This document shows positions 34,624-38,793 of a stretch of 64,000 nucleotides of DNA, piece by piece. The stretch is from an uncultured Bryobacterales bacterium (lineage in GTDB: Bacteria; Acidobacteriota; Terriglobia; Bryobacterales; UBA6623), in contig OY282420.1 in the NCBI GenBank assembly GCA_958295955.1, forward strand, positions 2,742,435-2,806,434, in the 5' to 3' direction. The notes under the pieces are model-generated. The model was not told where the DNA came from and did not search any database. It worked only from the letters and a program-made list of their open reading frames with translations. The position numbers and the translations under genes are program-made. The stretch's first letter is position 1. Each line of letters starts with the position of its first letter.

Positions 34624-35181
34624 ATGATTGTTTCGTTAATTGGATATCTGTTTACTCTGGCGCTGGGAATTTGGGGGCTGACGACGTCCGCGGAACTGGT
34701 CGCCCGCGGCGCGTTGACGGCTTCTCTGGATAATTTGTTCCTGACGCTTTTCGCCGCGCTGATGGCCGTGCTGTCGTTCGGATACCTGGCTTGGCGTTTC
34801 AATCCGTCGCGCCTCGCGCCCGCCGGCGCTGCTGCCGCGGGCGGCGGCGTCTCGGTCGAGCGTTACGTTCTGCCCGAAGACCCTGCGTACGAAGACGCGC
34901 ACATACCGCTCTTCAACAAAATATGGATCGGCCTTCTGGCGCTCACCGTGATCGAGGTCGTTTTGGCCTATGTGCAACTCGCCGGCGTACTCTTCATGCT
35001 GACAATCCTGCTTCTCCTGTCGGTGATCAAAGCCGGCATGATTATGGGCTGGTTCATGCATCTCAAATTCGACCATCCCGTTTTTAGTTGGGTCGTGGTC
35101 GTGCCGGCCGTGGCGTGTATCCTGATTATGTGCGGCTATTTCTTCCCGGACAGCTTCCAGTTGCTGAGGTTGGGCCTCTGA
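34624..35181 (+). CDS. Cytochrome c oxidase subunit IV-like protein
   Basis: This 185-residue membrane protein has two N-terminal helices (about 1-22 and 35-57), an Ala/Gly-rich linker, and a C-terminal three-helix part. That part (IWIGLLALTVIEVVLAYVQ, then KAGMIMGWFMHLKFDHPVF) matches prokaryotic subunit IV. The helix MHLK motif with nearby His is characteristic. Typical subunit IV proteins are about 100 residues, so the first 80 residues are an extension. It follows subunit III by 9 bases. Confidence 0.83.
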   Translation: MIVSLIGYLFTLALGIWGLTTSAELVARGALTASLDNLFLTLFAALMAVLSFGYLAWRFNPSRLAPAGAAAAGGGVSVERYVLPEDPAYEDAHIPLFNKIWIGLLALTVIEVVLAYVQLAGVLFMLTILLLLSVIKAGMIMGWFMHLKFDHPVFSWVVVVPAVACILIMCGYFFPDSFQLLRLGL

Positions 35182-35450
35182 TTCCATCGGGCAAAGGCGC
35201 GCGTCTCATCGGGCTCGTACCGCGCGGGCTCGTTTGCGCAGCCGTCTTCTCTTGCTTGCTCGCGGTTCCGCCGAGCGCGCGGGCTCAAGGCTGCTCGATG
35301 TGCCGCGAGACGGCGTCGTATCAGAAGGACCGCGCCGTGAACGCCCTCAAAAACGGGATTGTGCTGCTCGCCATCCCTCCGCTGGCCATCATTGGCGGCA
35401 TCGGCTGGCTGACGTATCGGCGCTGGAACGAATCCGGCGGGTCTGTCTAG
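35130..35450 (+). CDS. Small exported membrane protein with CxxC motif at end of cox operon
   Basis: The body has a signal sequence (GLVCAAVFSCLLAVPPSARA), then GCSMCRETASYQKD with a CxxC pair, then one membrane helix (GIVLLAIPPLAIIGGIGWL) and a short basic tail. The frame has no ATG near the expected start. GTG at 35130 or 35115 and ATG at 35088 lie inside the subunit IV gene, and a non-standard CTG at 35178 would give the cleanest signal peptide. It may bind copper or heme during oxidase assembly, which is inference from its position and the cysteine pair. Its last 19 codons are copied in the repeat at 37586-37713. Confidence 0.6.
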   Translation: MRLFLPGQLPVAEVGPLIPSGKGARLIGLVPRGLVCAAVFSCLLAVPPSARAQGCSMCRETASYQKDRAVNALKNGIVLLAIPPLAIIGGIGWLTYRRWNESGGSV

Positions 35451-35521
35451 CAGGCGCGCAACCGGATTCGCCTAGATCGAGCCGCGCGCAGCCCTTTTGG
35501 AATGCGCCCGAACGCGATTCG
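35394..35521 (+). repeat. Left 128-bp direct repeat flanking the ATPase/RloB cassette
   Basis: This segment runs from within the last codons of the small CxxC gene through its stop and the following intergenic bases. It matches 37586-37713 at 124 of 128 positions with no gaps; the differences are T/C, G/A, C/T and C/T. A second aligned match, CCGCGGGGCGCT at 35534-35545 against 37726-37737, keeps the same spacing, so the homology decays over about another 30 bases. Confidence 0.95.
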
Positions 35522-35527
35522 CCAGAT

Positions 35528-35550
35528 GCGCCGCCGCGGGGCGCTTTTTT
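35528..35550 (+). terminator. Rho-independent terminator after the cox operon
   Basis: GCGCC-GCCGCGG-GGCGC followed by six T residues forms a short GC-rich hairpin with a T tail, 78 bases after the last cox gene. The corresponding place after the right repeat (37720-37742) has lost the left arm and the T run is interrupted, so it would not terminate. Confidence 0.65.
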
Positions 35551-35570
35551 CATGCCACAAAGAAATCGCC

Positions 35571-35576
35571 TATTAT
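35571..35576 (+). promoter_or_regulatory. Candidate -10 box of the ATPase/RloB cassette
   Basis: TATTAT about 75 bases before the ATPase ATG, with a poor -35 (TTTCAT, 35548-35553) at 17 bases. It lies just beyond the terminator, where a cassette-specific promoter is expected. The ribosome site is strong: AGGGGAG at 35637-35643, seven bases before ATG 35651. Confidence 0.3.
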
Positions 35577-35650
35577 GTAAGAATACGACGAGTTCCCGCA
35601 CATTAAGCCCTAACTTGGTCATCCAATCGTCGAGATAGGGGAGAATTTGC

Positions 35651-36898
35651 ATGTTGCTGCGCTTTGGCGTTTCCAACCATCTTTCGATTCGCGATCCGCA
35701 AGAGTTGTCGTTCGTAGCATCTTCATTGAAGGATCGAGACGACGGACTGATCGCCTGCGCGGCGGCGCCAAGCGGGTCGATACTGCCGGCAGTCGTAATT
35801 TACGGCGCCAATGCATCGGGCAAGAGCAACCTTGCGGACGCGATGGCGACCATGCGCAGCATGGTGCTGTGGTCTCAAACAAAAGGGGAACCGGGCGGCA
35901 GCGTGCCGCGCCGTCCCTTCAGACTCGATGCCGCCCATCCCCAAAGGACATCGCGTTTCGATATCGACTTCGTCATCGACGGCGTGCGACATCATTACGG
36001 CTTCGAAGCGTCCGACAAGGCGTTTGCATCCGAATGGCTCTACGCCTTCCCCAGGTCCCACCGCCGGACATTGTTCGAACGCGACGGCGGCGAGTTTCGC
36101 TTCGGGCGGGGGTTAAGCGGACTGAATAACCTCATTGCCAAGTTGATCCGGCCCAACAGCCTGTATTTGTCGGCGGCAGCCCAGAACGGCCACGCACAGC
36201 TTTCAAGAGTATTCGAGTATTTTCGGTCGATTACCAGCGTTCGGGAGGACGCGGCGGCTCCAGGTCAACCGGCTGAGGAAGGGCCGGATCGCCGGGTGAT
36301 CGACTTTCTCGGAAAGATCGGTACAGGAGTCGTTGGCTTTCGGCGCAAGGAAATCGAACTCCCGGAAGACATCCGAAAGATTGAGCGGGAGATATCTGCA
36401 GCATTGAGCAAGCTGGAGCCCACGCTGGTCGCCTCTAAACCGGATTCCATCGAATTGGCCCACCGCAGCCGGGACGACACGGAAGTCTATCTCGCATTGG
36501 ACCAAGAGAGCGCCGGCACGCGGCGGTTGCTGGTCATTCTCGATCGTGCATTTCGCGCCCTCGATGAAGGCGCTCTGCTCTGCGTCGACGAACTCGACGC
36601 CAGTCTGCACACACATGCCGGCAAGGCTGTGCTGCAATTGTTCTGTTCGCCGGGCGCCAATCCTAAAGGCGCGCAGCTTTTAGCCACGACCCATGACACC
36701 AACCTGATGAACTTGTCCGCGCTGCGGCGGGATCAACTTTGGTTCACTGAGAAAGACGCATGGGGAGCAACACGGATCTATCCTCTAACCGACATTCGAA
36801 CCCGCAAGAGCGATAATTTGGAGAGAGGGTATCTTCAAGGCCGTTACGGCGCAACGCCCTTCGACGACCCCATCTCGACCCTTGGCGCGACGAAGTAA
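35651..36898 (+). CDS. AAA/SMC-like ATPase, defence cassette (AbiLi-like)
   Basis: This 415-residue protein of the AAA_15/AAA_21 group (ABC-type head domain) has Walker A GANASGKSN at residues 52-60, a signature-like ESAGTRRLL near 289, and Walker B LLCVDELDASLH near 309-320. HDTNLMNL follows, with a switch-like His. No nuclease (Toprim) domain is fused. Such ATPases are paired with RloB-type proteins in abortive-infection systems such as AbiL, where they probably sense phage components and control the partner. It overlaps the RloB gene by 17 bases. The protein is cytoplasmic with no membrane segments. Confidence 0.85.
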   Translation: MLLRFGVSNHLSIRDPQELSFVASSLKDRDDGLIACAAAPSGSILPAVVIYGANASGKSNLADAMATMRSMVLWSQTKGEPGGSVPRRPFRLDAAHPQRTSRFDIDFVIDGVRHHYGFEASDKAFASEWLYAFPRSHRRTLFERDGGEFRFGRGLSGLNNLIAKLIRPNSLYLSAAAQNGHAQLSRVFEYFRSITSVREDAAAPGQPAEEGPDRRVIDFLGKIGTGVVGFRRKEIELPEDIRKIEREISAALSKLEPTLVASKPDSIELAHRSRDDTEVYLALDQESAGTRRLLVILDRAFRALDEGALLCVDELDASLHTHAGKAVLQLFCSPGANPKGAQLLATTHDTNLMNLSALRRDQLWFTEKDAWGATRIYPLTDIRTRKSDNLERGYLQGRYGATPFDDPISTLGATK

Positions 36899-37553
36899 GA
36901 GCGGCGGCCGCGCCGTCCCTGACCTGAAGCGGCGCAAACATCGCCGCGAGCCGAAGCGGCGTTTTATCCTGTTTTGCGAAGGGGAAAAGACTGAGCCGGC
37001 CTATTTCGAAGCAATCCGCCGCGCCTGCTCAAGCACTCTCATTGAGGCGCCGGCCTACCGCGGCGCGGGTGTTCCCTATACCATTGCGGAAAAAGCTGTC
37101 GCCTTTGCCGAGTCTCAGGGTCTTGCTCGACACGGCCGCCGTAGAAAGGAATCGTTCGAGAAATACGACCAAGTCTGGGCAGTGTTTGACCGCGACGATC
37201 ATCCTCGATTCGACGAAGCAGTGGCGCTTTGCGAAAAACACGGCGTCGGTGTCGGCCGCTCCAACCCATGTTTCGAACTTTGGCTGATCCTGCACGAGCG
37301 TGAGTACAATCAACCCAACCATCGCCGCAAAGTGCAAGCAGAGCTTAAGGCCCTACGGCCGGAATACGACGCACGCGGCGCGAAAACGCCGAATTGCGAC
37401 GAGTTGGCAACCCGGGTCCAAGATGCCGAAAAACGCGGCGAGGCGCTATTGCGGAACCGAGAGCTGGATGGTTGTCCATACGGCAATCCCTCGACGACTG
37501 TCGGTCGACTGACCCGTGCGATCCGCGAAGCCAATGAACAGGCACGGCCATAA
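36882..37553 (+). CDS. RloB-like protein, defence cassette (AbiLii-like)
   Basis: This 223-residue RloB-family protein starts at TTG 36882, inside the ATPase gene. A basic N-terminus (KRRKHRREPKRR) leads to a Toprim-like core: FILFCEGEKTEPAYF with the acidic Glu, then WAVFDRDDHPRFDEA with the paired Asp residues, and NPCFELWLILH. RloB proteins occur in restriction and abortive-infection loci and are predicted nucleases. With the ATPase it makes a complete two-gene unit. The exact substrate is unknown. The stop is 32 bases before the right repeat. Confidence 0.83.
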   Translation: MARRSKSGGRAVPDLKRRKHRREPKRRFILFCEGEKTEPAYFEAIRRACSSTLIEAPAYRGAGVPYTIAEKAVAFAESQGLARHGRRRKESFEKYDQVWAVFDRDDHPRFDEAVALCEKHGVGVGRSNPCFELWLILHEREYNQPNHRRKVQAELKALRPEYDARGAKTPNCDELATRVQDAEKRGEALLRNRELDGCPYGNPSTTVGRLTRAIREANEQARP

Positions 37554-37585
37554 AGCGACAATGCTTTCCGGCGGCCCGATTCGTA

Positions 37586-37713
37586 GGCGGCATCGGCCGG
37601 CTGACGTATCGGCGCTGGAACGAATCCGGCGGATCTGTCTAGCAGGCGCGCAACCGGATTCGCCTAGATCGAGCCGCGTGCAGCCCTTTTGGAATGCGCC
37701 TGAACGCGATTCG
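37586..37713 (+). repeat. Right 128-bp direct repeat flanking the ATPase/RloB cassette
   Basis: This copy begins with a dead end-fragment of the CxxC gene, still readable as GGIGRLTYRRWNESGGSV and a stop. It then runs into the start of the DUF2891 gene. One of its four differences from the left copy (C to T at 37680) creates the GTG that can start the DUF2891 frame. Confidence 0.95.
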
Positions 37714-38793
37714 CGGGCTTCGCTTCCGCGGGGCGCTGCTTTTCTCATTGTTGCCCTCGCTTTCCTTCCTTGCGCTATGGCCGCGGATATTCCGGTTTCC
37801 CGTTTCGCCCGATTGGCGCTCGACTGCGTTCACCGCGAGTATCCGAACAAGATCATGCATACCCTCGCGAGCGACGCGGACATCGCGCCGCCGCGCGAGT
37901 TGACGCCCGCGTTTTACGGATGCTTCGACTGGCACTCGTCCGTTCACGGCCACTGGCTGCTGGCGCGTTTGATCCGCCGCTATCCGCGCGAGAACTTCGT
38001 CGCGGAAGCCCGCGCCGCGTTGTCGCAGAGTCTCGCCAAGGAAAATATGGAAGCGGAAGTGCGCTACGTCAGCGGCGCCGGACGCGGCACGTTCGAGCGG
38101 CCGTACGGGCTTGCCTGGCTGCTGCAACTGGCCGCGGAACTGCGCGCATGGAACGACCGCGAAGCGCGGCTCTGGAGCAAAGCGCTCGAACCGCTCGAAA
38201 CCGTCGCGGCAGAACGCATTGCCGAGTGGCTCCCGAAGCTGACCTACCCGATCCGAACCGGGGAGCATTCCCAAACCGCCTTTGCCTTCGGACTCATTCT
38301 GGACTGGGCGCGGACCGCGGGCAACGCGGAGATGGCAACCCTGCTGGAACGCCGCTCGCTGGAGTTGTACCGCGGCGATCGGGGCTGTCCGCTCGGATAC
38401 GAACCCGGCGGACAGGATTTTCTTTCGCCTTGTCTGGCCGAGGCGGACCTCATGCGCCGGATTCTCCCTCCGGAGAAATTCGCGCTCTGGCTGGCCGACT
38501 TCATGCCTGCGATCCCCGAAGACGGTTCGCCGGACTGGTTGCCCGCCGCGCAAGTGAGCGACCGCGCCGACGGCAAGATCGCTCATCTCGACGGGCTCAA
38601 CCTCAGCCGGGCGTGGATGCTCGAAGGCATAGCCGCGGGCTTGCCCGAAGACGACGCGCGCAGAGTTTCGCTCGGCGCGGCTGCGCGGATTCATCGAGAA
38701 GCGGGCTTGGCCGCCGTGACCGGCCAACACTACGAGGGCGGCCATTGGCTGGGCAGCTTCGCCGTGTATCTAATTACGCAGCGCGGAATATAG
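37679..38793 (+). CDS. DUF2891 family exported protein
   Basis: This 371-residue protein of the DUF2891 family has the conserved block PAFYGCFDWHSSVHGHWLL (His and Asp residues at about 85-105) and repeated helical segments, as in alpha/alpha-barrel proteins. Typical sequence marks such as YGLAWLLQLAAELRAW and GGHWLGSFAVYL follow. GTG 37679 gives a signal peptide (FLIVALAFLPCAMA). ATG 37777 would give the mature part only. The activity of the family is not established. The start region lies inside the right direct repeat, so its promoter was probably altered by the insertion. Confidence 0.75.

Follow-up and report, generated by a model that had tools for sequence, protein, structure and literature searches.

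The cassette and its surroundings

The window (the whole 64,000-nucleotide stretch of contig OY282420.1, from an uncultured Bryobacterales bacterium, that we analyzed) contains a two-gene cassette lying between the end of a cox operon and a DUF2891 gene, with a copy of the same host sequence on either side. The features of the locus, in order, are as follows:

35181..35450, + strand: last gene of the cox operon, encoding an 89-aa small protein; in same-family genomes, a homologue follows cox4 immediately
35394..35545, + strand: left repeat copy, comprising the 3' end of the small gene, its 3' UTR and terminator; repeat search, BLAST, in frame with the conserved gene
35528..35550, + strand: intrinsic terminator (GCGCC..GGCGC, T6) that ends the cox operon, inside the repeat
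35546..35650, + strand: AT-rich spacer, 43% GC; weak sigma-70-like match TTTTCA-18-TATTAT at 35547–35576, by consensus match only
35651..36898, + strand: AbiLi-type ABC/AAA_21 ATPase, 415 aa; Pfam AAA_21 1.1e-35, PADLOC AbiLi 3.4e-87, motifs conserved in 43 homologues
36882..37553, + strand: RloB/AbiLii, 223 aa, TTG start; Pfam RloB 5.7e-36, PADLOC AbiLii 2e-25
37586..37737, + strand: right repeat copy, a duplicate of the cox-gene 3' end, truncated on its 5' side and changed in the terminator; repeat search, BLAST
37678..38793, + strand: DUF2891 gene, start codon inferred; Pfam DUF2891 1.4e-134, N-termini of relatives

The PADLOC AbiLi match spans residues 1–406 of the ATPase, in which Walker A (G52–K58), the signature (E286-S-x-G-T290), Walker B (D313-E314) and the switch histidine (H348) are invariant or almost so among the 43 homologues. 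RloB keeps the Toprim-type acidic residues E33 and D103-x-D105 in the alignment of its homologues. Its TTG start aligns with an ATG in the closest homologue and overlaps the end of the ATPase gene by 17 nt, which suggests coupled translation, and the AT-rich spacer ahead of the ATPase is a possible promoter for the cassette.

An AlphaFold2 model of RloB (pLDDT 85) has the OLD Toprim structure 6nk8 as its top structural neighbor (Z 7.3, rmsd 4.1, 145 residues aligned), with unrelated folds close behind at 6.9; the score against 6njw, an OLD-family Toprim (Z 6.4), is likewise near those of unrelated folds. Foldseek with this model returned nothing below E 1e-3, and a sequence search of the PDB found no relative for either cassette protein. 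The model is suggestive of a Toprim fold of the OLD type, in agreement with a published HHpred statement that relates RloB to OLD_TOPRIM (PMC10440598).

With AbiL of Lactococcus lactis (AbiLi/AbiLii) and RloA/RloB-type pairs, the cassette shares the operon of ATPase and RloB and the same PADLOC and Pfam families; carriage on plasmids and phages is common to both. The sequence hallmarks of AbiL are present: an AbiLi-type ATPase, RloB/AbiLii downstream, and intact ATPase motifs and RloB acidic residues. The pair is nevertheless distant from AbiL in sequence (22% identity to the ATPase of a Lactococcus prophage) and chromosomal, between stretches of duplicated host sequence, and AbiL-type defense is here a prediction. 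PARIS (AriA/AriB) also combines an AAA_21/ABC ATPase with a Toprim-type partner, and the ATPase matches the PADLOC AriA models too (1.4e-32), but the partner differs, since RloB (PF13707) matched no AriB model in PADLOC, only RloB and AbiLii. Judged by these family matches, the proteins are an ordinary AbiL/PARIS-like pair and not a new system, which agrees with the original prediction that the unit resembles AbiL.

AAA partners of Toprim toxins are regarded as antitoxins (PMC10440598), and in PARIS, phage triggers make the ATPase ring release a Toprim tRNase (PMC11455837, PMC12409363). By analogy, we infer that the cassette is an abortive-infection module. The ATPase would assemble around the RloB Toprim nuclease and restrain it, a phage trigger would free RloB, and the freed nuclease would cut essential nucleic acid, perhaps tRNA, so that the infected cell stops growing.

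Direct repeats derived from the end of a host gene

The flanking sequences at 35394–35521 and 37586–37713 are identical at 124 of 128 positions in an ungapped comparison, a match whose chance expectation in an 8-kb region is ~1e-57. BLAST stretches the match to 35394–35545 versus 37586–37737 (152 nt, 93.4%), and an ungapped repeat search to as much as 162 nt at 91%; past the 128 bp, the copies diverge over an 11-nt patch in the terminator hairpin and are then identical again for 12 nt. The 2,040-bp interval between them contains only the ATPase and RloB genes, with a spacer of 105 bp on one side and 32 bp on the other (from the RloB stop to the right copy), and neither a tRNA nor an Rfam RNA was found there. 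Exactly two copies, besides one weak 30-nt match, are present in the 4.58-Mb genome, so the repeat is not a widespread dispersed element.

The left copy is in frame with the gene conserved behind cox4 in relatives, and its coding part is the last 19 codons (stop included) of the 89-aa gene, whose product matches no Pfam family. In the relative L080, the cox operon likewise closes with a hairpin and a T run. The right copy is 5'-truncated, has lost a conserved Trp codon (W>R) and carries no independent gene: it is a displaced duplicate, running into the DUF2891 gene. The near-perfect 128-bp repeats, the left one the authentic operon end and the right one a duplicate leading into DUF2891, were thus correctly read in the original prediction. 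An integron attC or structured RNA was considered for the repeat and rejected, as either copy, on either strand, folds no better than shuffles and has no Rfam match.

In the region 37516–37801, the open frame of the DUF2891 gene extends upstream across the right repeat as far as GTG 37516, with no ATG ahead of a signal-peptide-like stretch. The best start is likely GTG 37678, which lies inside the repeat and would exist solely through a GCG>GTG difference between the copies.

Evidence for horizontal acquisition

Third-position GC is 0.67 in the ATPase gene and 0.61 in the RloB gene versus 0.84 in coxA/B, and the cassette is patchily distributed, occurring in 20 of 257 genomes of the order (E≤1e-40). 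Similarity at the DNA level to the closest relatives (L090, L094) begins at most ~22 bp from the ATPase start and ends 21 nt short of the RloB stop; among congeners belonging to another class (G706, G781, G937), it again spans essentially the gene pair alone. This confinement identifies the pair as the moving unit and, together with the low third-position GC, argues that it has moved horizontally. The cassette is missing behind cox in 15 same-family genomes (all from other genera, with an unrelated right flank), as expected from insertion and not from ancestral presence. An empty site with one repeat copy, proposed as a check, was seen in none of them. The order cox–DUF2891–PIG-L is lineage-specific: the right flank adjoins cox in no relative, and an ancestral cox–DUF2891 neighborhood, which we also considered, was found in none of the relatives compared. 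The event therefore cannot be polarized, and a linked rearrangement is possible.

Homologues travel on diverse mobile elements. The closest one with a recognized context (64% identical, genome G005) belongs to a Mu-like prophage that also has transposase, MuB-like, protease and head genes, and others are carried by a P2-like Klebsiella phage, a lambdoid prophage, a Lactococcus prophage, small mobilizable plasmids of 3.7–5.3 kb and at least 80 viral contigs. The E. coli homologues reside in prophage-type elements and small plasmids.

Other cassettes with duplicated host flanks

Among 34 testable cassettes from the phylum and a few outside genomes, seven have long direct repeats close by. Genome-wide copy counts struck two of these, G725 (43 matches) and G781 (30 matches), where the cassettes are flanked by dispersed elements; one more, G706 (L183), was kept as ambiguous, its long repeats being two full-length paralogous genes that match no Pfam family and that we take to be Uma2-like. 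A repeat at G035 (L174) looks like a duplicated gene, presumably a DUF433 antitoxin, and was dropped from the count. Four of the 34 are clean cases, the window and three others, each with exactly two repeat copies per genome:

G095: 3' end (last codons) of phzF; 81 bp, 90% identity; two copies
G221: kinase-PD40 gene; at least 290 bp, 93% identity, with the repeat cut by the contig end; two copies
G408: 3' end of hipA; 314 bp, 86% identity; two copies

Cassettes with host-derived duplicate flanks, for which a search had been proposed, were thus found elsewhere, although three is a small number. The four clean cases involve both orientations, varying repeat lengths and unrelated target genes, which argues against a single site-specific integrase. 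Random segments of comparable DNA gave 5 hits in ~456, all of them tandem similarity in two loci (p=0.002 against 4 of 34), after two L135 matches in the background sample, which were the window itself, had been taken out by hand. The comparison gives p=0.012 when the window, the discovery case, is omitted, and p=0.07 when G408, the least clean of the four, is omitted too. Seven further loci of another class have no such repeat in the available flanks, which brings the proportion closer to one in ten. Of the differences between repeat copies, 34 of 66 fall at third codon positions (p=0.002); the excess hints at most at a diverged donor copy and would also fit selection on the intact copy.

The G408 cassette sits in an island (L178, G408:C4, 3496–9440) that runs for 5.9 kb from an intact tRNA-Leu(CAA) to a tRNA-Leu 3' fragment. 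Besides the AbiL-like cassette, it contains a phosphoesterase-like gene and an HTH/HipA pair, with no recognized integrase, and thus has the makeup of a small defense/toxin island. A sequence beside the cassette looked like an integrase relic by eye; it matched no Pfam or PHROG family and was not used. No tRNA was found in the G095 and G221 loci. The elements at G781 (L182, 193–273) and G725 (L180, 6635–6711) are GC-rich, ~70–80 bp long and have dozens of matches per genome; such elements can mimic target duplications beside defense genes.

Origin of the arrangement

Insertion with duplication of the end of a host gene is the likely explanation of the arrangement. In the fuller reading that we prefer and hold to be reasonably probable, the last cox-operon gene received a horizontally acquired AbiL-type cassette (ATPase plus RloB, ~1.9 kb) at its 3' end, and ~150 bp of this gene end were duplicated in the process, leaving one copy per side (‘insertion with long target duplication’). 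The route may have been a circular molecule on which the pair was joined to some host DNA; this circle would recombine into the homologous gene end (Campbell type) and give the order gene end–cassette–gene end. The repeats would also allow RecA to excise the cassette again as a circle.

Reports from 2000 and 2010 describe long duplications of host sequence around restriction-modification genes on the move (Nobusato 2000 and Furuta 2010, as cited in PMC3874152 and PMC3031569). In the form in which they are cited there, these cases have in common with ours defense genes alone between host-derived direct repeats of the order of 100 bp, the lack of a mobility gene, and variable lengths and targets; in the window, 152-nt host-derived direct repeats of 93% identity enclose a unit without a mobility gene. 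The published cargo is a restriction-modification system, whereas here it is an abortive-infection pair, with repeats 7–14% diverged. The e14 prophage in icd offers a quantitative match, a 165-bp duplication of the gene end with 12 changes that restores the reading frame (PMC11148124; PMC6379469). Here too, the 3' end of a gene is duplicated and the upstream gene left intact, but e14 is a 15-kb prophage that entered by site-specific recombination and the window unit is 2 kb, with two genes and no integrase. Given these precedents, the ‘unusual mechanism’ first proposed was overstated.

The unit has no transposase and no terminal inverted repeats, and its duplication is far too long for a short target duplication; ORF and Pfam searches found no integrase gene in it, and no att core could be recognized from this single locus. 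Setting ordinary transposition aside was therefore fair, but preferring recombination to a lost integrase was unproven, as the e14/icd scar was made by an integrase. An integrase that later disappeared could account for an identical scar and is a serious alternative to recombination. The window would then hold the remnant of an integrase-driven element whose attachment site was the cox-gene 3' end, the left copy being the element's replacement end and the right the displaced original. The near agreement of the e14/icd duplication with our repeats in size and divergence, the prophage setting of the closest homologue and the tRNA-Leu island of G408 all speak for this account. We think it rather unlikely, however, because no integrase or relic was found in the 105-bp and 32-bp spacers (compared with fetched ORFs only) or in the neighboring genes scanned, and because other cassettes use unrelated genes, with repeats of 81 to more than 290 bp and, at G095 and G221, no tRNA. 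We favor homologous or illegitimate recombination.

The repeat might instead have arisen when a rearrangement of the chromosome brought the cox operon and the DUF2891/PIG-L region together, the cassette arriving separately. In the single-contig relative G006, ~1.2 Mb separate the PIG-L orthologue from cox (if the contig is circular), while in other relatives it is on a different contig, and DUF2891 has no ordinary start codon where it meets the repeat. Such a history is improbable: it requires two events where one suffices, the cassette is 105 bp away from one repeat and 32 bp from the other, and the same association of repeat and cassette recurs in other genomes. A dispersed repeat or an assembly artifact is very improbable, for although dispersed repeats do flank the G725 and G781 cassettes, exactly two non-identical copies are present here, within a 4.44-Mb contig.

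Implications for the spread of small defense cassettes

How small defense cassettes spread without integrases is an open question that these loci address. What is new is a known mode of mobility, long target duplication, with another cargo; the system itself is known. Several unrelated genes bear a scar of the restriction-modification type around a toxin-like ATPase/Toprim pair, which suggests that this mode depends on a self-maintaining toxic cargo and not on DNA methylation. Quite tentatively, AbiL-type ATPase–RloB pairs might be integrase-free mobile units, inserting themselves at the ends of arbitrary host genes, with long target duplications, and leaving by RecA recombination, a mode that might be general for toxic two-gene defense cassettes. 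The idea is testable in any species with many strains bearing AbiL-like pairs.

Additional observations at related loci

In E. coli strain 73 (L187, NZ_CM167660.1, 112499–142069), a small AbiL-like mobilizable plasmid is present in tandem, partly truncated copies within the annotated chromosome, beside F-type tra genes. Many intergenic gaps of the Mu-like prophage at L090 (G005:C45; 4991–5174, 6720–6860, 10830–10950, 12565–12740 and 13220–13580) hold variants of one low-complexity repeat (CACGAATCACGAAACACGA...). In the congeners G937 (L314, 2164–2478) and G943 (L317, 2988–3301), the 315 bp upstream of the cassette are 94% identical and the cassettes themselves only ~81%, a pattern that would fit an exchange of the cassette or two separate insertions at the same site.
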